From: Acidobacteriota bacterium
Lineage (GTDB): Bacteria > Acidobacteriota > Thermoanaerobaculia > Multivoradales > J023
DNA length: 64,000 nucleotides
Assembly (NCBI GenBank): GCA_029263315.1
Contig: JAJCXR010000032.1
Coordinates: 124,001 to 188,000 of the forward strand
Reading direction: 5' to 3'
How positions within the stretch are numbered: the stretch's first letter is position 1; each line of letters opens with the position of its first letter. A program made the position numbers and the translations under genes. Shown here in pieces: positions 14,998 through 25,672 of the stretch. The notes below the pieces were generated by a model, which had not been told where the DNA came from, searched no databases, and worked only from the letters and a program-made list of their open reading frames with translations.

Positions 14998-16194
14998 ATG
15001 CCGCGCCATCGCAAAACCAGGGGGCCCCGCCGAAAACGACCCGACAGCGTCCAGCTCTCGCCCGTGCAGCGGGAGGAGCTGCTGACCGGGCTGGCCTATC
15101 CCGCCCTCGGCCAGGGCTTCGACTCCGATGCCCAACGCCGCCAGGCCTGGCAACGCCACCGCGACGAGCTCCTCACCTACTGGACCACCCCGGCCGACCC
15201 CGACGCCCCCCGCGGCGATCTCGGCAGCCCACGGCCCGGCGGGCCCGGTTTGCGGCCCTGGGGCTGGTGGCGCTATGACGCCCCCGAGCCCCGCCGACTG
15301 GTCGCCGGCATTGGCGAGTCCGTCGACGGCTCCCCCGCCGCTTTCGGCATCCCCAGCCGCTGGCGCCAGCTCGACGGCGACGACCCACCGCGCTACGAGA
15401 GTGAGCGCGACTACCTCCAGCGGTGCAACCTGGTGGAACCCTGCGACGACCCCAGCCGCGGCTCAACGACGCCGCCCCAGTTGTGGAACGCGCCCCCCGG
15501 CGGCGTCTCCCTCGACTACGCCCGCCAGGTGCTCGACGGCACGCCGTCCATGGGCCGGCGCATCCGCCAGGCCTGCCGGCGCCACCTCGACGACCTGCGC
15601 CACGGCCACCAGCGCGGCCTCAGCTGGTGCGACACCCGCGCCAGGCACTTTCACCGCTGGTTCGACTTCCTCACCCTCACCTCGGCTGAATGGGCCGGGC
15701 GCCCCTGTGAGCTCCAGACCTGGCAAGCCTTCGGCATCGAGCTGCTGGGGGGCTGGCGCGACGCCGAGGGCTACCGTCGGTTCCGCACCGCCTTCTGGTT
15801 CGTCGCCCGCAAGGCCGGCAAGTCGACGCTGGTGGGGGGCGTCGGCAACTATTTGCTGGTGGCCGACGGTGAGCCCGCCGCCCAGGTCTACGCCGCCGCC
15901 ATCGACAAGGCGCAAGCCCGCATCGTCTACGAAGAGGCCGAGGCCTTCGTGCTCGAGCAACCGCACCTGGCCAAGATCATCGAGACCCGCCGCGACCACA
16001 TGCGCCACGGTCGCAGCCGCTTCCGTCCCCTGCCCCGCGGCGCCAAGAAATTCCACGGCTTCTCACCCCACGGCGGCCTCATCGATGAGCTGCATGTCCA
16101 CCCCGACGACGAGGTGGTCTCCGTGCTGCGCACCGGCACCGGGGCCCGCCGCCAGCCGTTGCTCTTCATCATCACCACCGCCGGGGACTCCTAG
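14998..16194 (+). CDS. Terminase large subunit, N-terminal ATPase part (interrupted)
   Basis: 398 residues carrying the packaging ATPase: Walker A VARKAGKSTL near residue 271, Walker B GLIDELH near 361, and the coupling motif FIITTAGDS at the very end. TAG at 16192-16194 stops the frame exactly after the coupling motif; six sense codons later a TAA follows (16216-16218), and then the same frame stays open to 17181 and encodes the nuclease domain. Both stops occupy positions where homologues would be expected to carry an aromatic residue, and each is one base from a Tyr codon. Either the gene is broken, or the halves act as separate subunits, or the stops are read through or are sequence errors. 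About 120 extra residues precede the ATPase core. Confidence 0.88.
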   Translation: MPRHRKTRGPRRKRPDSVQLSPVQREELLTGLAYPALGQGFDSDAQRRQAWQRHRDELLTYWTTPADPDAPRGDLGSPRPGGPGLRPWGWWRYDAPEPRRLVAGIGESVDGSPAAFGIPSRWRQLDGDDPPRYESERDYLQRCNLVEPCDDPSRGSTTPPQLWNAPPGGVSLDYARQVLDGTPSMGRRIRQACRRHLDDLRHGHQRGLSWCDTRARHFHRWFDFLTLTSAEWAGRPCELQTWQAFGIELLGGWRDAEGYRRFRTAFWFVARKAGKSTLVGGVGNYLLVADGEPAAQVYAAAIDKAQARIVYEEAEAFVLEQPHLAKIIETRRDHMRHGRSRFRPLPRGAKKFHGFSPHGGLIDELHVHPDDEVVSVLRTGTGARRQPLLFIITTAGDS

Positions 16195-16233
16195 GAATCC
16201 CCCGCCTTTGAGGAGTAATCCCACGCGGGAAAG

Positions 16234-17181
16234 GTGCTCGACGGCGCCGTCGACGACGACCAGTACTTCCCGCTGGTCTTCGAGATCGACGACGAGGACG
16301 GCTGGAAGGATCCCGAGCAGTGGATCCAGGCCAACCCCGGCGTCGGCATCAGCCCGAAGCGTGACTACCTGGCCGCCATCGTCCGCGAGTGCGAGAACCG
16401 CCCCTCCAAGCGCGCCGACAACCTGCGCTACCAGCTCAATTACTGGATCATCGGCGGGGCGTCCACCTGGTTACCCTACGACCGATGGAAGCGCTGCCAC
16501 CGCGGCGTCGGCGACTTGGAGCTGCGCCAGCAGCTGCTCGGCGAAGAATGCTACGGCGGGCTCGACCTGGCGGCGGTCAGCGACTTCGCCGCCTTTGCAC
16601 TGTTCTTCCCGGGGCGCAACGTCCTGCTGGTGTGGCATTGGACCCCCGGCGATGGTCTGGACGAACGCTCGAAGAAAGACCGCGCCCCCCTCGACCGCTG
16701 GGCCAAGGCGGGATGGATCGACGCCACCCCCGGCCGCACCGTCGACTTCGACAAGGTGCGCGAAACCATCCTCGAGCAGCGCCGGCTTTACCGTCTCGTC
16801 GAGGTGGGTTTCGACGAATGGAACGCCCTCCAGATCACCGGTCAGCTGCGCGACGCCGGGCTCCCCTGCGAGAAGGTGGGGCGCGGCTCCGCCGGCATGT
16901 CCGGCCCCAGCCAGTACCTCGAAAAGCTGGTGCTCGAAGAGGCCCTCGAGCATGGCGACAACCCCGTGCTCAACTGGCAGGCGAGCCACTGCGAGGTCAA
17001 ACGCGACGGCGACGACATCCGCCCGCACAAACCCCAAAAAGAATCGGCGCGCCGCAAGGTCGACGGCCTGGTCGCCAGCGTCATGGCCATGGCGCGCTGG
17101 CTCAAGACCGGAGCGGACCGCAAGGATTCCGTCTACAACCGGCGACACCGGGAGGGCAAATGGCGATCGGTGGTGATTTGA
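16234..17181 (+). CDS. Terminase large subunit, C-terminal nuclease part
   Basis: In the same frame as the upstream ATPase part. If translated on its own it would start at GTG 16234, with GGGAAAG directly upstream. The 315-residue product contains the RNase H-like nuclease domain: first acidic strand CYGGLDLAAVSDF near residue 108, middle acidic region VEVGFDEWN near 191 and a late conserved RRKVDGLVASVMAMA near 284. It cuts concatemeric phage DNA at initiation and termination of packaging. It overlaps the following small gene by 22 bp. Confidence 0.85.
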   Translation: MLDGAVDDDQYFPLVFEIDDEDGWKDPEQWIQANPGVGISPKRDYLAAIVRECENRPSKRADNLRYQLNYWIIGGASTWLPYDRWKRCHRGVGDLELRQQLLGEECYGGLDLAAVSDFAAFALFFPGRNVLLVWHWTPGDGLDERSKKDRAPLDRWAKAGWIDATPGRTVDFDKVRETILEQRRLYRLVEVGFDEWNALQITGQLRDAGLPCEKVGRGSAGMSGPSQYLEKLVLEEALEHGDNPVLNWQASHCEVKRDGDDIRPHKPQKESARRKVDGLVASVMAMARWLKTGADRKDSVYNRRHREGKWRSVVI

Positions 17182-17555: not shown

Positions 17556-19381
17556 TGGGCTGGCTCGACGACATGACCGAGGAACGAAGCGGCTCCGACC
17601 TCTTCTCCACCCTGCGCGACCCCGCCCCCTGGCTGCTCGACGCCATGGGAGCCGCCCCCACCACCAGCGGCGAGCCGGTGAGCGAGGAGAAGGCCCTGCG
17701 CCTGTCGGTGGTTTATGGCTGCGTCCGCCTGATCGCCGAGACGGCCTCCCTGCCGCCGTTGCGGCTGTACCGTCGCGAGACCACCACCGACGATGAAGGC
17801 AGGAAGAGCACCCGCCGCCACCGGGTCGATAGCCCCGAGGCCCGGGTCATTCGCCAGCCCAACCGGTTCATGACCGAGGCCAGCTTTCGCGAGACCCTCA
17901 CCGCCCACTTGGCCCTGTGGCGCAATGCCTACGCCGAGATCGAGCGCGACAGGAACGGCGACCCCATCAACCTCTGGCCGGTGCCCCCCTGGCGGGCCCA
18001 GGTGGAGGTGGTGGACGGGCAGAAGGTGGTGGTGGTCGACGTCACCGCCCGCGACGGCTCACAGGAGCGGCGCACCCTATGGCCCGGCGACTATCTCCAC
18101 CTGCACGCCCTCTCCCTCGACGGCCTCAAGGGTCGCCCCCTGCTCTCCGGCGGCTGGGACGACGGCGACGCCCGCAACAGCGTTGGGCTGTCGCTGGCCA
18201 TCGAGAAGGACGCCGCCCTCTACTACCGCCACGGCATGAAGATGCAAGGCTATTGGGTCACCGAGGGAAGCTTCGACGACGACGTACGGGAGAAGCTCGA
18301 GCAAGAGCTGCGCACCCTCACCCAAGGTCTCGACAATTTCCACCGCACCGCCCTGCTCGAGGAAGGCGTCGAGTGGAAAGAGATGGGAGGCGGCGCCCCC
18401 GTCGTCGAGCAGCTGCTGGCCATGCGGGTGTTCCAAGTCCAAGACATCGCCCGTTTCTTTGGTATCACCCAGCTGCACAAGCTCGGCGACCTGAGCCGCG
18501 CCACCTTCTCCAACATCGGCGAGCAGCGGGAGGAGTTTTACACCGACACCATGATGGTTTACTTCCTGCGCTGGGAGCAGTTTGTTGGCCTTCAGCTGCT
18601 GTCGCCGGAGCAACAGCGGGACCACTACTACAAGTTCAACACCCGCGCCTTGCTGCGCGGTAGCTTCGCAGATGAGCTCGAGAGCCTGCGCGGCTCGGTG
18701 GTCGACGGCCTGCTGACCCTCGACGAAGCCCGCGAGCTCATCGACCGCGACCCCTACCCCAACGGCATCGGTGCCCTGCCCCGCTTTCAGCTCAACACCG
18801 CCTCGGCGGAGCCCACCGGCCAGGCGGCGGCAGCGCCACCGGCTCCAGCGCCACCAGCCAAGCCGAGCCCCGCCCCCTCGCCAAAGCAGCTCGCCCGCCA
18901 AGTTATCCAGGCCCTGCGTCCCAGCCTGCAACGCAGCGCCGAGCACTTCACCCGACGCGAGGCCCGGGCGGCACAGCGGGCCTGGACCCGTTCCAAGCAC
19001 GACCCCGCCACCTTCGAAACCGCCATGGAGCGCACCTGGCGCGAGCTGCCCGAAGCCATGCGTCGCGAGCTACAGCCCACCGTCGAGGCGGCTGTGGCGG
19101 CCGTCGAGGCCCTGGGTGGTGGGTCAGACAATCTGCGGGCCATCGCCGAAGAGCACCTCGACGACATCGTGGCTCGCTACCTCGAGCACTCGCGCCGCGA
19201 GCTCGCCGAGGGCCTCGCTAGTGCCTCACAAGATGGCGAGTCCAGGCCCGGACAATGGCTCGAAGCGACCCTCGACCACTGGCAGACGCACCGGGCCGAC
19301 GAGCTGGCCGGCGAAGAAATCGACCAACTGGCGGCTCGACTCGTCGAGGCTGCCTTTGACGGCGAGGAAAGCGATCCATGA
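17555..19381 (+). CDS. Phage portal protein (HK97 family)
   Basis: 608 residues, start ATG 17555 overlapping the upstream TGA. The N-terminal block LRLSVVYGCVRLIAETASLPPL (about 48-69), PNRFMTEASFRETL near 104 and the central QVQDIARFFGITQLHKLGD near 295 are characteristic of HK97-type portals, which form the dodecameric ring for DNA entry and head-tail joining. The core ends near residue 420; an Ala/Pro-rich linker and a helical extension of about 150 residues follow, longer than in HK97. It overlaps the protease gene by 4 bp. Confidence 0.93.
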   Translation: MGWLDDMTEERSGSDLFSTLRDPAPWLLDAMGAAPTTSGEPVSEEKALRLSVVYGCVRLIAETASLPPLRLYRRETTTDDEGRKSTRRHRVDSPEARVIRQPNRFMTEASFRETLTAHLALWRNAYAEIERDRNGDPINLWPVPPWRAQVEVVDGQKVVVVDVTARDGSQERRTLWPGDYLHLHALSLDGLKGRPLLSGGWDDGDARNSVGLSLAIEKDAALYYRHGMKMQGYWVTEGSFDDDVREKLEQELRTLTQGLDNFHRTALLEEGVEWKEMGGGAPVVEQLLAMRVFQVQDIARFFGITQLHKLGDLSRATFSNIGEQREEFYTDTMMVYFLRWEQFVGLQLLSPEQQRDHYYKFNTRALLRGSFADELESLRGSVVDGLLTLDEARELIDRDPYPNGIGALPRFQLNTASAEPTGQAAAAPPAPAPPAKPSPAPSPKQLARQVIQALRPSLQRSAEHFTRREARAAQRAWTRSKHDPATFETAMERTWRELPEAMRRELQPTVEAAVAAVEALGGGSDNLRAIAEEHLDDIVARYLEHSRRELAEGLASASQDGESRPGQWLEATLDHWQTHRADELAGEEIDQLAARLVEAAFDGEESDP

Positions 19382-19989
19382 CCGACCTACGAATCATTGA
19401 TGACGCGGAGCTGCGGGTGTCCGGCGAAGGCGCCAGCCGCATGATCGTGGGCTACGCCCCCAAGTGGAACCAGTGGTCCCGTCCCCTGACCTCCGGCAAG
19501 CGGCAATTCGTCGAGCGCTTTGCCCCCGGAGCCTTCGCCGGCCGCGACGGCGAGGTGGTGGCCCTCTACGGCCACGAGAAGCGCAACCTTCTACCCCTCG
19601 GCAGCACCCGGTCCGGCACCTTGCGCCTGCACGACGACGGCGTCGGCCAGGCCTTCGAGCTCGCCCCGCCGGATACCAGCTTTGCGCGGGATCTGTTGGT
19701 GTCGATCGAGCGGGGGGATTTGTCGGAGACGAGCTTTGCCTTCAAGGTGCCGAAGGGCGACGAAGCCGATGAGTGGGAGCGGGGCGAAAGTGGGCTCTTT
19801 CGGCGGACAGTGCACCGGGCGGTGCAGATGGATGTTTCGATCGTCGCCCGTGGGGCATATCCTGGGGCGGATCTCGCTGTACGGGATGCTGGGGAACGGT
19901 TGGATACGTTTCTTGCCGTCGATGAGGTGGTGGGTGGGCATCCGAATCAGCGGTTTGTCAATCGGCAGCGGTGGGTGGAGCTGGGGTGA
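19378..19989 (+). CDS. HK97-type prohead protease (peptidase S78)
   Basis: 203 residues. Conserved blocks: GYAPKWNQWSRPL, FVERFAPGAFAG, the catalytic His in ALYGHEKRN near residue 63, and the catalytic Ser in GDLSETSFAFKVP near 122, followed by VQMDVSIVARGAYPGAD near 148. The protease cleaves the capsid delta domain during maturation. In HK97-like phages the capsid gene normally follows directly; here a 4.3-kb cargo island separates the two. Codon use becomes less G+C-rich in the last 60 codons, towards the island. Confidence 0.93.
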   Translation: MTDLRIIDDAELRVSGEGASRMIVGYAPKWNQWSRPLTSGKRQFVERFAPGAFAGRDGEVVALYGHEKRNLLPLGSTRSGTLRLHDDGVGQAFELAPPDTSFARDLLVSIERGDLSETSFAFKVPKGDEADEWERGESGLFRRTVHRAVQMDVSIVARGAYPGADLAVRDAGERLDTFLAVDEVVGGHPNQRFVNRQRWVELG

Positions 19990-20380
19990 GGGTTTACACC
20001 TCGGGCGGCAGGCCGATAGAATCCTCGCCAGCTTGGCGGTTGCCTTCAAGTTGTAGATGTCTAGGGGATTGCTGAATTGACTGGTGGAGTCGGTGGAGGT
20101 ATGGGCACCTTGGCAGTTCTTTTCGGATTTGGGCTGCCAGCCGCCGACTTGCGGCGGTTGTGGCGATTACGTCTGCGGATTGACGTGTTGGCCCGGTAGA
20201 AACGGTGGATTGAATGGGATATATCGGCCGGGGTTAAGAATTTGGGCAGAGGATGAAAGTTCCTTCCTGAGTGCTCTGCGTCTCAGAATTGACTGGATGG
20301 CGGTTTCAGCTACGCACGTCGGATAACAAGGATATGCGATTTGAATACAGAGTCACGTCTGCGAGTACCAATTGAATAAC
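19990..20380. other. Left edge of the cargo island, no supported gene
   Basis: About 390 bp of lower G+C than the phage genes. An 80-codon frame at 20084-20326 is open but has no ribosome site or recognisable motif. I see no clear attC-like palindrome here, so the exact left border of the inserted DNA is not resolved. Confidence 0.4.
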
Positions 20381-20887
20381 ATGACAGGAACCAACCTACG
20401 CGGGGCGTCCATGAAGGATGATGAAACCAGGTCTTCCGATCCAGATCTATCGAAGCCTGAACCAGCGTCCCTCTCGGAGGTAAACGAGCAGGATGAGTCA
20501 ACACAAGAATCGGCACCTGAGCTGGAGGCGATGCTGAAGCAACTGGAGCTTGTGGACATCCGAATGCGGCACCACATTACACGATTCTGGGCACTGCCCT
20601 CAGCTTATCTAGGTGTAGTCTTTCTTGTCTTTTCCGGATTAGAGAAATCAGATCTGGATGCCCACCAGCCCTTCCTTTCGGGTGGACTAGTCTTATTCGG
20701 ATGTCTGGTTCTCGTGGCAATGGCGGCCTCCAACGAGGGTTTTGGCCGCTCTGTTCGAAGAGTAGGAGAAATAGAAGCAGCCCTTCATCTAAAGGTCTCT
20801 CCAAGAATGATGCTGCTGCAATTCTTGCCTTACTATCTGGTTGCCCTAGTTGGCATTGGTTACTCGATTGCAATGTTGGTCACGTGA
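20381..20887 (+). CDS. Cassette gene 1: predicted three-helix membrane protein
   Basis: 168 residues from ATG 20381 (TTG 20372 and ATG 20411 are alternatives; no strong ribosome site decides). The N-terminal 60 residues are acidic and probably disordered (KPEPASLSEVNEQDES). A short helix (LEAMLKQLELVDIRMRHHI) leads into three hydrophobic segments at about residues 69-85, 97-115 and 143-165. No known family recognised. It is first in a set with TIR and DUF4062 proteins; small membrane proteins next to such genes can be effectors or sensors of defence systems, which is inference. Codon use is poorer in G+C than that of the phage genes. Confidence 0.6.
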   Translation: MTGTNLRGASMKDDETRSSDPDLSKPEPASLSEVNEQDESTQESAPELEAMLKQLELVDIRMRHHITRFWALPSAYLGVVFLVFSGLEKSDLDAHQPFLSGGLVLFGCLVLVAMAASNEGFGRSVRRVGEIEAALHLKVSPRMMLLQFLPYYLVALVGIGYSIAMLVT

Positions 20888-20934
20888 GCCAAAATGTGGC
20901 GACCCAACTGCCTACTCTCCGTATATCCCACCGA

Positions 20935-20983
20935 CTCGAACGCACGGCGCGGCGCGCCGGCGCTCAGCCGGAGCCCGTTCGAC
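20935..20983 (+). repeat. attC-like site A after cassette gene 1
   Basis: Outer arms CTCGAAC (20935-20941) and GTTCGAC (20977-20983) are inverted repeats with one mismatch, and the inner part is G+C-rich and self-complementary around GGCGCGCC. The inner right segment GGCGCTCAGCCG is shared with site B (22569-22580). The upstream stop is 48 bp away and the next start 22 bp away. Confidence 0.5.
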
Positions 20984-21005
20984 CCAGGGCTTAAGAGGAA
21001 GCTTA

Positions 21006-22496
21006 GTGCGAATCGTTAGCGACAGAATCCTATGGCTCAAGAAGCATCGGGGCTCGGAAGCCTATCGGCTCAAGCTTCCCAGCCATACGAGATTTGCTCT
21101 AGGTCTACAGAATGGGACCTCTACCTTCTTGGTTCCGTCATCTCAGGGTACCTCTATAGTTGTATCTGAGATAAGCCCTTTGAGCTGGGGAGACTTGTGG
21201 AGACTCAGAGTGAAGCTTACAGACTCTCCTGGCGCCTCCCTGAAGCTCTTCGAGGTTCTCCGGGCGGGAGGGGTGAACATCGTGAAACAAGAAGTAACGA
21301 CAATCTCCTCTTCTCCGATGGCTGCGATAGAATTAGAGATGCTGCTCGATTTGAGGAACTATTCATCGGAAATAGATGGCGATACTCGCACGAGAAATTC
21401 TACCGAGAGTCCGGAATTCACTCCTAGTCACCTGCTCCATCAAATTCTGGAGGGAGTAGGTGAGGACACGGTTAGAGGAACGGCAGGAACGGCGACGAAT
21501 GATTGGCGGATTCAGTGCCAGAGGGCTAAGTTCTTTTTTGAGAACAAGGATTTCATTCCCCGTTTCGAGAGATCATTGGTTTCTGGCAGTGAGCTATTGA
21601 TCCCGAAGAGCCTAATTACTGAAAGGATCCACTGGAATCGAGATCTGGAAGGGGAAATCCCCTGTTTGGCAATCGCGGATACTGAAGAAGGCTTCCTGAA
21701 ACTTGATCTGCTCCAGCCTGGGCGCTTGGTGATGATCTTAGACATCAGGCACCAAGATCGTTTGGGAGCGTTCCAGAGTTTGCTTGACTACTTGATCAGC
21801 CATCGTCTTGATGTGAAAAGCACACTGCTTCGCACTACAAGTCTTAACTCGAAGGATGTGCTGATCACTGTAAGTGCAGAGATTGGCAGTGGCCTGGATA
21901 TTCTAGAGTTGCTAAGGAGTTTGCCTACAGTTGGTTTCGTAGAAGATTTGAAGATTGTGGATAGCTATGGGATCATCCCAAGTGTCCGTTCAGAGCTCCG
22001 CGGCGAGGGCCTACTTCGGGAGGCTTCTGAGGGTATTGTAGAGGATCGCGTTACTGCTGACACTGGTTCTGCGAAACGAGAGGCTAGACATAGCTATGAC
22101 GTTGCATTGTCATTTGCAGGAGAAGACCGAGCACACGCGGAAAGGCTGGCGGGGCTACTCACTGACCAAGGGCTTCGAGTCTTCTATGACCGCTACGAGC
22201 GTAGTGGTCTCTGGGGCAAGGATTTGTATCAGCATCTCCAGAAAGTATACAAAGATGACGCTGAGTACTGTGTCATCTTTGTTAGCGAGCATTATGCGAG
22301 GAAACTCTGGGCCAGACATGAGTTAAAAAATGCTCAAGTACGGGCATTCATGGAGGCAAGAGAGTATATCTTGCCCATAAGGCTGGACGACACCGAAGTT
22401 GCTGGAATACACAACACTCTGGCCTATATTGATCTACGCGAGGTTTCTATCGAAGAAATTGCTGAGGATTTGTTGGAGAAAATCAATGAGAAGTGA
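21006..22496 (+). CDS. Cassette gene 2: TIR-domain protein with two ACT-like domains
   Basis: I start at GTG 21006, preceded by AAGAGGAAG; an upstream ATG at 20850 would run through the palindrome. The 496-residue product ends in a TIR domain (about 360-496): SYDVALSFAGEDR, VFYDRYE, CVIFVSEHYARKLW and the likely catalytic Glu439 in ARHELKNA, expected for NAD-cleaving bacterial TIRs. The region before it has two segments that look like ACT folds: LRVKLTDSPGASLKLFEVL...VNIVKQE (about 65-120) and LVMILDIRHQDRLGAFQSLL...KDVLITVSAEI (about 240-318). ACT domains bind amino acids or other small ligands, so a ligand-gated TIR is a reasonable hypothesis. The TIR call is firm, the ACT calls rest on pattern only. 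Confidence 0.82.
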   Translation: MRIVSDRILWLKKHRGSEAYRLKLPSHTRFALGLQNGTSTFLVPSSQGTSIVVSEISPLSWGDLWRLRVKLTDSPGASLKLFEVLRAGGVNIVKQEVTTISSSPMAAIELEMLLDLRNYSSEIDGDTRTRNSTESPEFTPSHLLHQILEGVGEDTVRGTAGTATNDWRIQCQRAKFFFENKDFIPRFERSLVSGSELLIPKSLITERIHWNRDLEGEIPCLAIADTEEGFLKLDLLQPGRLVMILDIRHQDRLGAFQSLLDYLISHRLDVKSTLLRTTSLNSKDVLITVSAEIGSGLDILELLRSLPTVGFVEDLKIVDSYGIIPSVRSELRGEGLLREASEGIVEDRVTADTGSAKREARHSYDVALSFAGEDRAHAERLAGLLTDQGLRVFYDRYERSGLWGKDLYQHLQKVYKDDAEYCVIFVSEHYARKLWARHELKNAQVRAFMEAREYILPIRLDDTEVAGIHNTLAYIDLREVSIEEIAEDLLEKINEK

Positions 22497-22536
22497 ATTC
22501 AGTTTTGCTATTAGCGAATCACGCTGAACGCGTCGA

Positions 22537-22592
22537 ACCCAACGGTTCGAGTGCATGGCGCAGCACCGGCGCTCAGCCGTGTCACGTTGTCT
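22537..22592 (+). repeat. attC-like site B after the TIR gene
   Basis: Left core ACCCAAC (22537-22543) fits the attC consensus RYYYAAC; the right core is GTTGTCT (22586-22592). The inner sequence GGCGCTCAGCCG matches site A. The TIR stop is 40 bp upstream and the next start 25 bp downstream. Weaker than site C at the right core. Confidence 0.45.
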
Positions 22593-22617
22593 TCCAATGA
22601 AGGGAAGGAGAATCTAG

Positions 22618-23853
22618 ATGCCTCGAAGAGAGACGGTCGTTGATGTTCTGGTAGCCTCTCCAGGCGACCTCGAGCCAGAACGAAGAGTGACCGAGGAGGT
22701 GATAGCCGAGTGGAACAGGACTTGGTCACGAGAGAGGGCAGTCAGGCTCAACAGCTTGACTTGGGAAGCCGACACGTTCCCAGATTTTGGAAAAGACGCT
22801 CAAGACGTCGTAAACAGACAGCTTGGCGACGATTACGATATTTTCTTAGGCGTGCTGTGGGCCCGCTTCGGCACGCCGACAATGAGGGCTGCTTCCGGCA
22901 CACTTGAGGAATTCGAAAGGGCACTCGCGCGACACAGGGATGATCCCGAAAGCGTGAAGATAATGATTTATTTTAAGTCAGCCGCTATCTCCCCAGAGAG
23001 CGACCCAGAGCAGCTAAAGCAAGTGCAGGAGTTTCGCGCTCGGCTTAAAGAGCTGGGCGCTCTCTACCACACCTTCAACTCCGAAGATGATTTCGCTAGC
23101 TATCTCCGAATACATCTAAGCAAACAGGTCCAAGAGTGGATAGACCCAGGTTTCGCTAGAAGCAGAAAGAAGACCCCCGAGCCACGAACGGAGGGCGTTG
23201 ACGCAAGCGGTCCTCCAGAAGACGCCAATAAAGAGGAGGAAGGGTTTCTCGATCTTGTGGAAGCTGGGACCGAGAACTTTCAGGAGTTGGCGGAGCATTC
23301 GAGCAGGTTTACTGCAGTCCTAGGTGAGTTCGGCGAACGAATTTCGGCAAACACTGAGGAGCTCAACGCCCTTAAGTCGAAACCCTCCGAGGATGTCGCG
23401 TCCAGAAAACGCATTATCAAGAAATCAGCTAAGGCGACGGTTGGACTAGCTGAGGCAGTGGAAGTTTTCATTCAGGACTTCAGGAAGACATACGGCGCAG
23501 CGATGGACTCGTATGGCAAGGCTGCTGCGCTCATCGTCGACTTTGACCCTGAGGATTCCTCGTTGGTGCAAGACTCCCTCGAGACGGTTGTAGAGCTGAA
23601 GGAGACCTTAGAACGTTCCCTGGAACAGATGAAGGCTTTCCGAGTGTCTATTGAAAGCACGCCGCGAGTAACGACGGAATTCAACAAGGCAAAAAAGAGG
23701 GCCGTGCTGGCTTTGAGCTTACTAGAGACGGAAATGGAAGTGGGTATTAACTCGTCGAAGGAGGTAGAGTCCTTGATGTCAGGTGTGATCGAGAAGATCG
23801 AAGCGGGCAATGGCACCGACACCGAGAGCGACGATCTCGACAATGGAAGATAA
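22618..23853 (+). CDS. Cassette gene 3: DUF4062-domain protein
   Basis: 411 residues; AAGGGAAGGAG lies 7 bp before ATG 22618. The first 110 residues form a DUF4062 domain: VDVLVASPGDLEPERRVTEE, YDIFLGVLWARFGTPT and the Glu-bearing GTLEEFERA near residue 100. DUF4062 belongs to the wider TIR/nucleoside-deoxyribosyltransferase-like fold and is known as an N-terminal domain of STAND-type defence proteins. Residues 160-411 are long, charged helices without an NTPase motif, so this is a free-standing DUF4062 protein with a coiled-coil-like tail. Its TAA stop lies inside the next attC-like palindrome. A partnership with the TIR gene is possible but unproven, since cassettes need not be functionally linked. 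Confidence 0.8.
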   Translation: MPRRETVVDVLVASPGDLEPERRVTEEVIAEWNRTWSRERAVRLNSLTWEADTFPDFGKDAQDVVNRQLGDDYDIFLGVLWARFGTPTMRAASGTLEEFERALARHRDDPESVKIMIYFKSAAISPESDPEQLKQVQEFRARLKELGALYHTFNSEDDFASYLRIHLSKQVQEWIDPGFARSRKKTPEPRTEGVDASGPPEDANKEEEGFLDLVEAGTENFQELAEHSSRFTAVLGEFGERISANTEELNALKSKPSEDVASRKRIIKKSAKATVGLAEAVEVFIQDFRKTYGAAMDSYGKAAALIVDFDPEDSSLVQDSLETVVELKETLERSLEQMKAFRVSIESTPRVTTEFNKAKKRAVLALSLLETEMEVGINSSKEVESLMSGVIEKIEAGNGTDTESDDLDNGR

Positions 23854-23907
23854 CAATCGGCTGCACGGTACCGCGCAAGCGGGCCCCCTTGAGCGCTGAC
23901 GTTAGGT
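23848..23907 (+). repeat. attC-like site C after the DUF4062 gene
   Basis: The best of the set: 60 bp running from AGATAAC, which contains the gene's stop codon, to GTTAGGT (23901-23907), a perfect match to the attC right core GTTRRRY. The inner segments CGGCTGCACGG and GAGCGCTGAC give the partial, bulged complementarity expected of attC. Confidence 0.55.
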
Positions 23908-24322
23908 GTCACAGCAGGGCTGTTGGCAGCCAGGTCTGCCAATTTTCTGAATGATCTTCGTGAACGTGAGAAGAGATTCTCAGCGAAGTCCAGAAGGGGT
24001 GCCGAATATGGAAGGTAGCGCCCCGCCTTGACCGGCCGCATAGCACCAACTTGGAGCGAACTCGCTCCGTGCGTCGCTCAGCTCGACACGTTGGCTGCAG
24101 CCCCCACCCTTGACATGCCCTCACCCCATCCCCCACAATGCCACCACGACATCGACGATGCCCACGGGCCTGCGTGATCCAAGACCACCACACCCCAGCA
24201 TCGTAACGTAGCGGCCGTGACGCCGAGCGCGCGGAGCTACCCACTACCCTCTTTCAACGACGAGGGTGCGGGGGCTCCGCGTTCTGCGTTTCTGGGCTCT
24301 CCACCCTGGAGGACGAGCCCAC
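23908..24322. other. Right edge of cargo island and capsid leader
   Basis: No gene is supported. A further palindrome at 24045-24096 begins CACCAAC and ends GTTGGCT, with GTCGCTCAGCTCGACAC inside, much like sites A and B. From about 24100 the sequence returns to the G+C-rich style of the phage, and a strong ribosome site (TGGAGGA, 24307-24313) precedes the capsid gene. Confidence 0.5.
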
Positions 24323-25672
24323 ATGGCCGAGATGCGACACAAGGTCATCGAATGGCGCAGGGAGCGCAAGCAGCTCGCCGAGCAGGCGGGCCAGCTCCTG
24401 CGTGACGCCGGTGACGACGCCCTATCCACCGAAGCGGAAGAACGCTTCGACGCCATCCATGCCGACATCGGCAAGCTCGACGCCCGCATCGACCGGGCGG
24501 AGCGCCAAATCCTCACCGAGGAGCGGCTGAGCCAGCCCCAAGGCGCCAAGGTCGGTCTGCGCAGTTGGGACACCCCCGACGACCCGGAGACGGACCGAAG
24601 CCGCGACGACGGCAAATCCCGCGAGCACAGCCCCTGGCCCGAGAACCGCTCCCACGAGGACGAGGTGTCGTTCCGCTTCATCTGCGGCGGCGACACCTTC
24701 CTCGAGGTGCCGGAGGATGCCGAGGCCTTCGCCCTGCGTAGCGCCGAGGGCTCGGAGATGTACAACGAGATGGTGCGGGAGGATCGCTCGATCAACAGCG
24801 CCGCCGCCAATCAGGGCGGTTACCTCATCGCCCCGCGCTACACCGGCCAGCTGCTCCAGGGCATGGCCTCGTTCGGCGGCCTGCGGGACTCTCGGGCCCG
24901 CGACTGGCGCACCGGCCACGGCGCCAGCATCAACCTGGCCACCAACAACGACACCCAGATGGCCCATGTGGTCGGTTTCGGTCAGGAGACGCCAGAGGAA
25001 GACCTCGAATTCGGTCTGCTGACCTCCAACACCCTGCTGGGTAGCTCCGGCGTGGTGCTCGTCGACATCGACGTGCTGCAAGACGCCACCGAGACTAGCA
25101 ACCTCCAAGCCGATCTGTGGGACATCGCCGGCCGCCGCATTGAGCGGCGCATCCAGTTCGAGGCCACCACCAACGACCCGGCGGTGTCGGGACGTGGCAA
25201 CCCGGGCTTGCTGGTGGCCGCCGCCAAGGGCGAGGACGCCGCCCTGGTCAACGCCGTGGCCTTCGACGAGCTCTACAACCTGAAGCACAGCGTCAACCGC
25301 TACCACCGCAAGAACGGCGAGTGGGGCTTCGCCGACAGCACCGAGCTGGCCCTCAAGAAGATGAAGAACAACCAGGGGGATCCGGCGTGGGACCCCGGAG
25401 CGGTGAAGCTGGGCGCTCCCCGCACCTTCGACGGCGACCCCTACCACGTCAACGACTACATGCCCGCCATCGGGGCCGGTGCCAAGTCGATCTCCTACGG
25501 CGACATGTCGCGGCTGCGCCTGCGCATGGTGCGCCGCGTCACCTTGTTTCGCTTCAACGAGAAATACATGGCCAAGCACCAGGTGGGTTTCATGGCCTTC
25601 GTGCGCTTCGGCCACCTGCTCGAAGACCCGGGCGACATGCCCATCAGGTACCTACAGCACCCGGCGGCGTGA
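24323..25672 (+). CDS. HK97-type major capsid protein
   Basis: 449 residues from ATG 24323, chosen for its ribosome site. Residues 1-95 are a charged coiled coil (RREKQLAEQAGQL-like region), the delta scaffold domain cut by the protease. The body has the HK97 signature SINSAAANQGGYLIAPRYTGQLLQGM near 158-183, GLRDSRARDWRTG, the E-loop region and, near the C terminus, RRVTLFRFNEKYMAKHQVGFMAFVRFG. It forms the icosahedral shell. It is separated from its protease gene by the cargo island, and its own ribosome site probably keeps it expressed. Confidence 0.93.
   Translation: MAEMRHKVIEWRRERKQLAEQAGQLLRDAGDDALSTEAEERFDAIHADIGKLDARIDRAERQILTEERLSQPQGAKVGLRSWDTPDDPETDRSRDDGKSREHSPWPENRSHEDEVSFRFICGGDTFLEVPEDAEAFALRSAEGSEMYNEMVREDRSINSAAANQGGYLIAPRYTGQLLQGMASFGGLRDSRARDWRTGHGASINLATNNDTQMAHVVGFGQETPEEDLEFGLLTSNTLLGSSGVVLVDIDVLQDATETSNLQADLWDIAGRRIERRIQFEATTNDPAVSGRGNPGLLVAAAKGEDAALVNAVAFDELYNLKHSVNRYHRKNGEWGFADSTELALKKMKNNQGDPAWDPGAVKLGAPRTFDGDPYHVNDYMPAIGAGAKSISYGDMSRLRLRMVRRVTLFRFNEKYMAKHQVGFMAFVRFGHLLEDPGDMPIRYLQHPAA

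Follow-up and report, generated by a model that had tools for sequence, protein, structure and literature searches.

A predicted TIR NADase with two ACT-like domains on an integron-type cassette among the head genes of a prophage

Introduction

Where the trigger of bacterial TIR effectors is known, it mostly consists of phage proteins or nucleic acids, detected via dedicated sensors, and TIR NADases fire when they are brought together. BtpA/TcpB, AbTir and BtTir carry the TIR fold, with the Glu of the WxxxE motif, at the C-terminus of a single polypeptide. In SARM1 a C-terminal TIR is joined to an allosteric metabolite sensor, and the protein is built with ARM and SAM domains. ACT domains usually bind amino acids and change their oligomeric state upon ligand binding; ACT-like domains occur in SerB2 (in tandem), threonine ammonia-lyase and PRK08577, and the output of ACT regulators is a metabolic enzyme. 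An ACT-like adaptor fold is also found in TRADD-N, which acts in apoptosis and immunity (PMC8195603).

Integrons are described as stores of anti-phage genes (Darracq et al., 2025, reviewed in PMC12409362), and TIR genes in integron cassettes are reported in PMC11089894. Arrays of attC sites without an integrase (CALINs) have been described in phages and in one prophage, one of which has tail, scaffolding and terminase genes as its neighbours; the cargo named in the available sections of that source comprises methyltransferase and toxin-antitoxin genes, not TIR or DUF4062 genes (PMC9892861). The DUF4062 protein Swarozyc is a TIR-like NADase which cleaves NAD+ and acts against phages via the portal (PMC13174449).

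The gene described here lies in a window of 64,000 nucleotides from an Acidobacteriota bacterium. With BtpA/TcpB, AbTir and BtTir its product shares the TIR fold, the WxxxE Glu and the C-terminal position of the TIR in one polypeptide, but the tandem ACT-like half and the prophage cassette context are its own. It would resemble SARM1 in coupling an allosteric metabolite sensor to a C-terminal TIR, if the proposed gating by the ACT-like domains holds, although the sensor half of SARM1 is unrelated to the ACT-like half. ACT-like domains are common to this protein, SerB2, threonine ammonia-lyase and PRK08577, whereas the output here is a TIR domain. The integron cassettes of PMC12409362 and PMC11089894 are likewise single-gene, attC-flanked and carry defence or TIR genes; the present cassette differs in lying inside a prophage head-gene operon, and ACT-TIR is not named in the available parts of these two sources. 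Swarozyc represents the family of the neighbouring cassette, a separate gene, while the protein described here has a canonical TIR. The ThsA gene that adjoins the TIR gene in Thoeris is lacking, the neighbours being a membrane protein and the DUF4062 protein. New are the ACT-ACT-TIR order, the finding of it beside another NADase-type cassette at a hotspot for prophage cargo, and a sister prophage with swapped cargo.

Results

Reading frame and TIR domain

The gene and its domains are located in the window as follows.

21006..22496, plus strand: ACT-ACT-TIR protein, 496 aa, GTG start
21063..21179, plus strand: possible SpoVT/AbrB-like hairpin (RLKLPSHTRFALGLQNGTSTFLV), residues 20-58, from a PRK08577 match
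21195..21365, plus strand: ACT-like domain 1 (ACT1), residues 64-120, profile and fold matches
21720..21959, plus strand: ACT-like domain 2 (ACT2), residues 239-318, pairwise, profile and fold matches
22095..22484, plus strand: TIR domain, residues 364-493, Pfam as well as sequence and fold matches to solved TIRs
22320..22322, plus strand: codon of Glu439, the predicted catalytic Glu

A sequence-only reading had placed an open reading frame at 21006-22496, and it was recovered with these very borders on the plus strand, encoding 496 aa. An AGAGGA resembling a ribosome-binding site lies about 8 nt 5' of the GTG at 21006, and the GTG follows the GTT of the upstream attC site 1 at a distance of 29 nt. 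A longer frame starting from TTG at 20850 was rejected, as it would traverse attC site 1. Because of the AGAGGA, the spacing to the GTT and this crossing, the GTG start is preferred.

The same reading had claimed a TIR domain at residues 360-496 with Glu439 in the catalytic position, and both parts hold. PF13676 matches residues 366-480 with an E-value of 6.5e-18 and 65.8 bits against a curated cut-off of 28, the whole domain spanning 364-493. The closest solved TIRs by sequence are BtpA/TcpB, BtTir and PdTIR, and by fold AbTir (7uxu; TMt 0.78 for the AF2 model in Foldseek). In an alignment of 15 sequences (the query and 14 relatives) neither W435 nor E439 varies, and E439 pairs with the Glu of BtTir WTEYE, the catalytic Glu of that protein. 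The alignments support E439 as the predicted catalytic Glu, and the protein would presumably cleave NAD. Its TIR subfamily occurs widely and is joined promiscuously to many unrelated partner domains, which fits the expectation for an effector module.

The ACT-like half

ACT folds had been proposed at residues 65-120 and 240-318, and matches to PRK08577, threonine deaminase and GlnD together with Foldseek matches to SerB2 support residues 64-120 and 239-318 as ACT-like in family and predicted fold. Comparison with ACT-family profiles, which had been suggested along with this proposal, gave a divided outcome: NCBIfam PRK08577 matches residues 21-120 with an E-value of 1.3e-9, whereas ACT1 reaches only about 0.04 and about 15 bits with Pfam ACT/ACT_4, below the gathering score of 27, and the domains are therefore termed ACT-like only. 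The ACT1 part alone matches PRK08577 (6.6e-4) and threonine ammonia-lyase (0.007) and carries the motifs DxPG at 73-76 and GVNI at 89-92. For ACT2, residues 231-311 match the C-terminal ACT of threonine ammonia-lyase at 8.3e-4 (in one of 396 genomes searched), a match which is weak taken alone, yet falls exactly on the ACT domain; the match to the ACT of GlnD is weak as well (0.043). ACT2 keeps the Gly (RLGAF, 252-256) and has RLDV where ACT1 has GVNI, so that the Asn is absent. Similarity between the ACT1 and ACT2 modules was not detectable.

Structure prediction, also suggested earlier, succeeded for the full-length protein and not for its N-terminal part. The full-length AF2 model has its alignment depth confined to the TIR part and covers neither 150-220 nor 308-357. 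With this model the top Foldseek match outside the TIRs was tandem-ACT SerB2 (5is2, E 5.9e-6), and AF1403, also an ACT protein, was matched too (1y7p, E 3.2e-4), while a single-sequence fold of residues 1-325 alone was unusable and discarded (pLDDT 38). Of the beta-alpha-beta-beta-alpha-beta ACT fold, the order beta-alpha-beta-beta appears in both ACT1 and ACT2, with the last helix/strand uncertain and block pLDDT values of 62-79 and 37-62, respectively. As the SerB2 alignments are long and loose (rmsd >20 Å over >400 columns), they support the domain types and not their mutual arrangement. Bcl-2-like PDB matches at 114-161 had E-values above 0.5 and were taken as chance.

The PRK08577 match starts at model position 14, in the AbrB-like half; separate matches in archaeal genomes suggest that the model has two halves, one AbrB-like at positions of about 2-52 and one ACT at about 53-132. 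Residues 20-58 contribute to the match, since the score is 38.2 bits with them and 19.8 bits for the ACT1 part alone. On their own they match no Pfam or NCBIfam family, and pLDDT is low there. An AbrB-like, possibly dimerising, hairpin may precede ACT1. A second such hairpin suspected by eye near 190-235 had no profile support and low pLDDT, and was dropped.

The N-terminal half had no homologue among the plasmids and viral contigs searched, in 396 genomes from its phylum, or among 84,980 species genomes that were scanned. Since the scans of genome contigs and viral sequences detect nothing but close relatives, more distant homologues may exist. The sequence-only reading knew of no described defence system with this domain order, and the order proved absent from any other sequence in the collections searched. 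A literature search for a pairing of ACT and TIR domains in a phage context found no such report. Three features go beyond that reading: the attC-flanked prophage cassette, the DUF4062 cassette which follows it, and the possible AbrB-like stretch before ACT1.

A cassette array between protease and capsid genes

The prophage has its head genes in the order terminase (two ORFs), portal, prohead protease, cargo, capsid protein and head-tail adaptor, and the gene lies in the cargo.

19378..19989, plus strand: prohead protease (Peptidase_S78), left flank of the cargo
20332..24094, no strand assigned: variable cargo of low G+C between flanks conserved in two sister prophages
20372..20887, plus strand: first cassette ORF, 171-aa membrane protein (8xMP PF24838 at 0.0089, below cut-off)
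20917..20985, plus strand: attC site 1, 5' of the TIR gene, GTT 20977-20979, 31-nt repeat, model R2
20977..22585, plus strand: gene cassette with the ACT-ACT-TIR gene; 1609 bp, counted from one GTT to the next
22528..22594, plus strand: attC site 2, 3' of the TIR gene, GTT 22586-22588, model R2
22618..23853, plus strand: next cassette, DUF4062-type protein of 411 aa (PDC-S60; Pfam DUF4062)
23851..23909, plus strand: probable attC site 3 (TAACAATCGGCTGC...GAGCGCTGACGTTAGGTG), by eye, overlapping the DUF4062 stop codon
24033..24098, plus strand: probable attC site 4, GTT at 24090, R2 E 1.3, read by eye
24323..25672, plus strand: major capsid protein, right flank of the cargo

The cargo has a G+C content of 47-54%, compared with 66-74% in the flanks, and its ORFs are separated by GC-rich imperfect palindromes ending in GTT. 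Two of these palindromes, attC sites 1 and 2, are homologous to repeats on contig C54 of the same genome. The covariance model R2 was built solely from four C54 sites, so that the window sites are out of sample, and its best matches in the window are attC site 2 (E 6.1e-8) and attC site 1 (E 1e-7), followed on the same strand by site 4 (E 1.3). Site 3 was matched neither by R2 nor by the other covariance model, R1, and has no excess stability; sites 3 and 4 rest mainly on reading by eye. The bottom strand of attC site 1 forms a hairpin of paired arms with extrahelical (bulged) bases, and paired L arms, extrahelical bases and a position 3' of an ORF are what is expected of attC sites. Folding energies of the single candidates are unexceptional, and the four sequences show little covariation of paired bases; what identifies the sites as attC is their homology, their position and the integrases found alongside such sites. 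A home-made scan for arms plus AAC/GTT did no better in the window than on shuffled sequence and was replaced by the covariance models, and an Rfam search gave nothing convincing.

On the sequence evidence, the ACT-ACT-TIR gene forms a cassette which, together with two or three others, makes up an integron-type array with attC sites in the prophage, and the cassette has presumably been mobile in the past. A CALIN is defined by two or more attC sites with no integrase nearby; the array corresponds to one, having two strong and two weak sites in an assembly where no integrase scored above cut-off. The assembly is 92% complete, so the absence of an integron integrase above cut-off in it is not proof; candidates in this genome turned out to be XerC/XerD-like. 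Promoter matches across the cassettes were at chance level only, and expression of the cassettes therefore probably depends on transcription from outside.

The next cassette begins with the ATG of the DUF4062 gene, 32 nt after the GTT of attC site 2. Its product matches PADLOC PDC-S60 over residues 7-173 (1.3e-52) and Pfam DUF4062 below cut-off (0.0056). The array would thus probably hold two NAD-cleaving effectors, the ACT-ACT-TIR and the DUF4062 protein. The latter carries a further C-terminal half, and its E97/E98 in SGTLEEF stand, by numbering only, at the place of the catalytic E97 reported for Swarozyc of K. pneumoniae.

Sites of the same kind occur elsewhere. R2 matches 14 of 40 genomes (this one and its relatives), an integron integrase was found in 11 of 40 relatives searched, and on two contigs (G018:C59 and G033:C485) R2 sites share the contig with integron integrases above the curated cut-off. 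There, integrase and attC share one strand and the sites follow the integrase on its 3' side, an arrangement like that of reverse integrons. In another relative (L013) an R2 site lies directly 3' of another TIR gene. The minus-strand array on C54 (L110, 341480-346000) is of low GC and contains a TIR-CHAT gene (344720-345880) and small ORFs with the sites 3' of ORFs; the stop codon of the TIR-CHAT gene overlaps a classical GCCTAAC box. A third attC-like group with ORFs between the sites is seen at about 320-322 kb of C54 (L120, R2 at 1500-1568, 2127-2192 and 2850-2936 of this locus). A maturase-like ORF (L110 2162-2812) near an attC-like sequence (C54 329404-329422) resembles group IIC-attC introns.

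A sister prophage on contig C8 of the same genome is homologous to window positions 17733-20331 and 24095-24857, the right-hand homology resuming only a few bases away from the site 4 GTT. At the same protease-capsid junction (L131 5485-9787) it carries a trypsin-like protease, a group II intron maturase fragment, a 286-aa protein, an FRG-domain protein and a DUF3800 protein, as would fit an exchange of cargo at one fixed place. The C8 cargo thus likewise holds a maturase fragment; no attC sites were found in it by R1 or R2. Viral contigs scanned with the capsid yielded no relative. The large terminase of the window prophage is split over two ORFs (14998-17181), through a broken gene or an assembly error, and a third copy of a related prophage, truncated where contig C17 ends, has its capsid gene in two frames (L130, 68000-77811).

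Discussion

From the domain content and the genomic setting we infer ligand gating and an anti-phage function: the protein is most likely a TIR NADase directed against phages, whose activity is controlled by its ACT-like domains through metabolite sensing or through assembly. The C-terminal TIR would be kept inactive or dispersed by the regulatory half with its two ACT domains. During infection a small metabolite, an amino acid or a nucleotide, would bind to or leave the ACT domains, which would alter the oligomeric state and bring the TIR domains together; their assembly would lead to cleavage of NAD+ and to death or arrest of the infected cell. Because TIR NADases fire by proximity and ACT domains switch oligomers, a metabolite-gated TIR effector is the simplest reading. 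The full explanation, a mobile integron-type cassette in a prophage hotspot which encodes a metabolite-gated single-protein TIR NADase effector, is given a probability of about 0.5. Extending it to a prokaryotic counterpart of SARM1, gated by amino acids or nucleotides through its tandem ACT domains, moved by integrons as a one-gene cassette and serving as swappable anti-phage cargo beside a second NADase cassette, is a tentative proposal which we consider doubtful as a whole.

The ACT-like domains might instead serve as assembly modules and not as sensors, and the TIR would then respond to a phage protein or to proximity. ACT2 is without the N/I motif, the ACT-like TRADD-N domains act as adaptors (PMC8195603), and there are other TIR and DUF4062 systems which detect the capsid or portal of a phage (PMC11312562, PMC13174449); however, ACT1 keeps DxPG and GVNI and its best matches are to metabolic ACT families, and pure assembly is considered less likely.

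The missing integrase, chance-level promoters, split terminase and singleton architecture would also suit a stored and mostly silent cassette, the passenger of a partly decayed prophage and without a present role. An intact reading frame with intact catalytic residues and the AGAGGA before the start argue against such a state, as does the swapping of cargo between the sister prophages, which suggests use, and silence appears unlikely. That the TIR makes a signal for a partner effector as in Thoeris, the partner being the DUF4062 or the 171-aa membrane protein, is very unlikely: no ThsA-type protein (SIR2, SLOG or Macro) is present among the neighbours and cassettes are independent mobile units, even though the neighbouring cassettes point in one direction and there are weak PADLOC matches to ThsB.

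If the protein is ACT-gated, destruction of NAD would be tied to metabolite levels shifted by infection, in a compact sensor-effector made by one gene. For the prophage, the locus shows that interchangeable, defence-like cargo made of integron cassettes can be accommodated in the head-gene operon of a phage, with genes of two different NAD-cleaving families adjoining in it.
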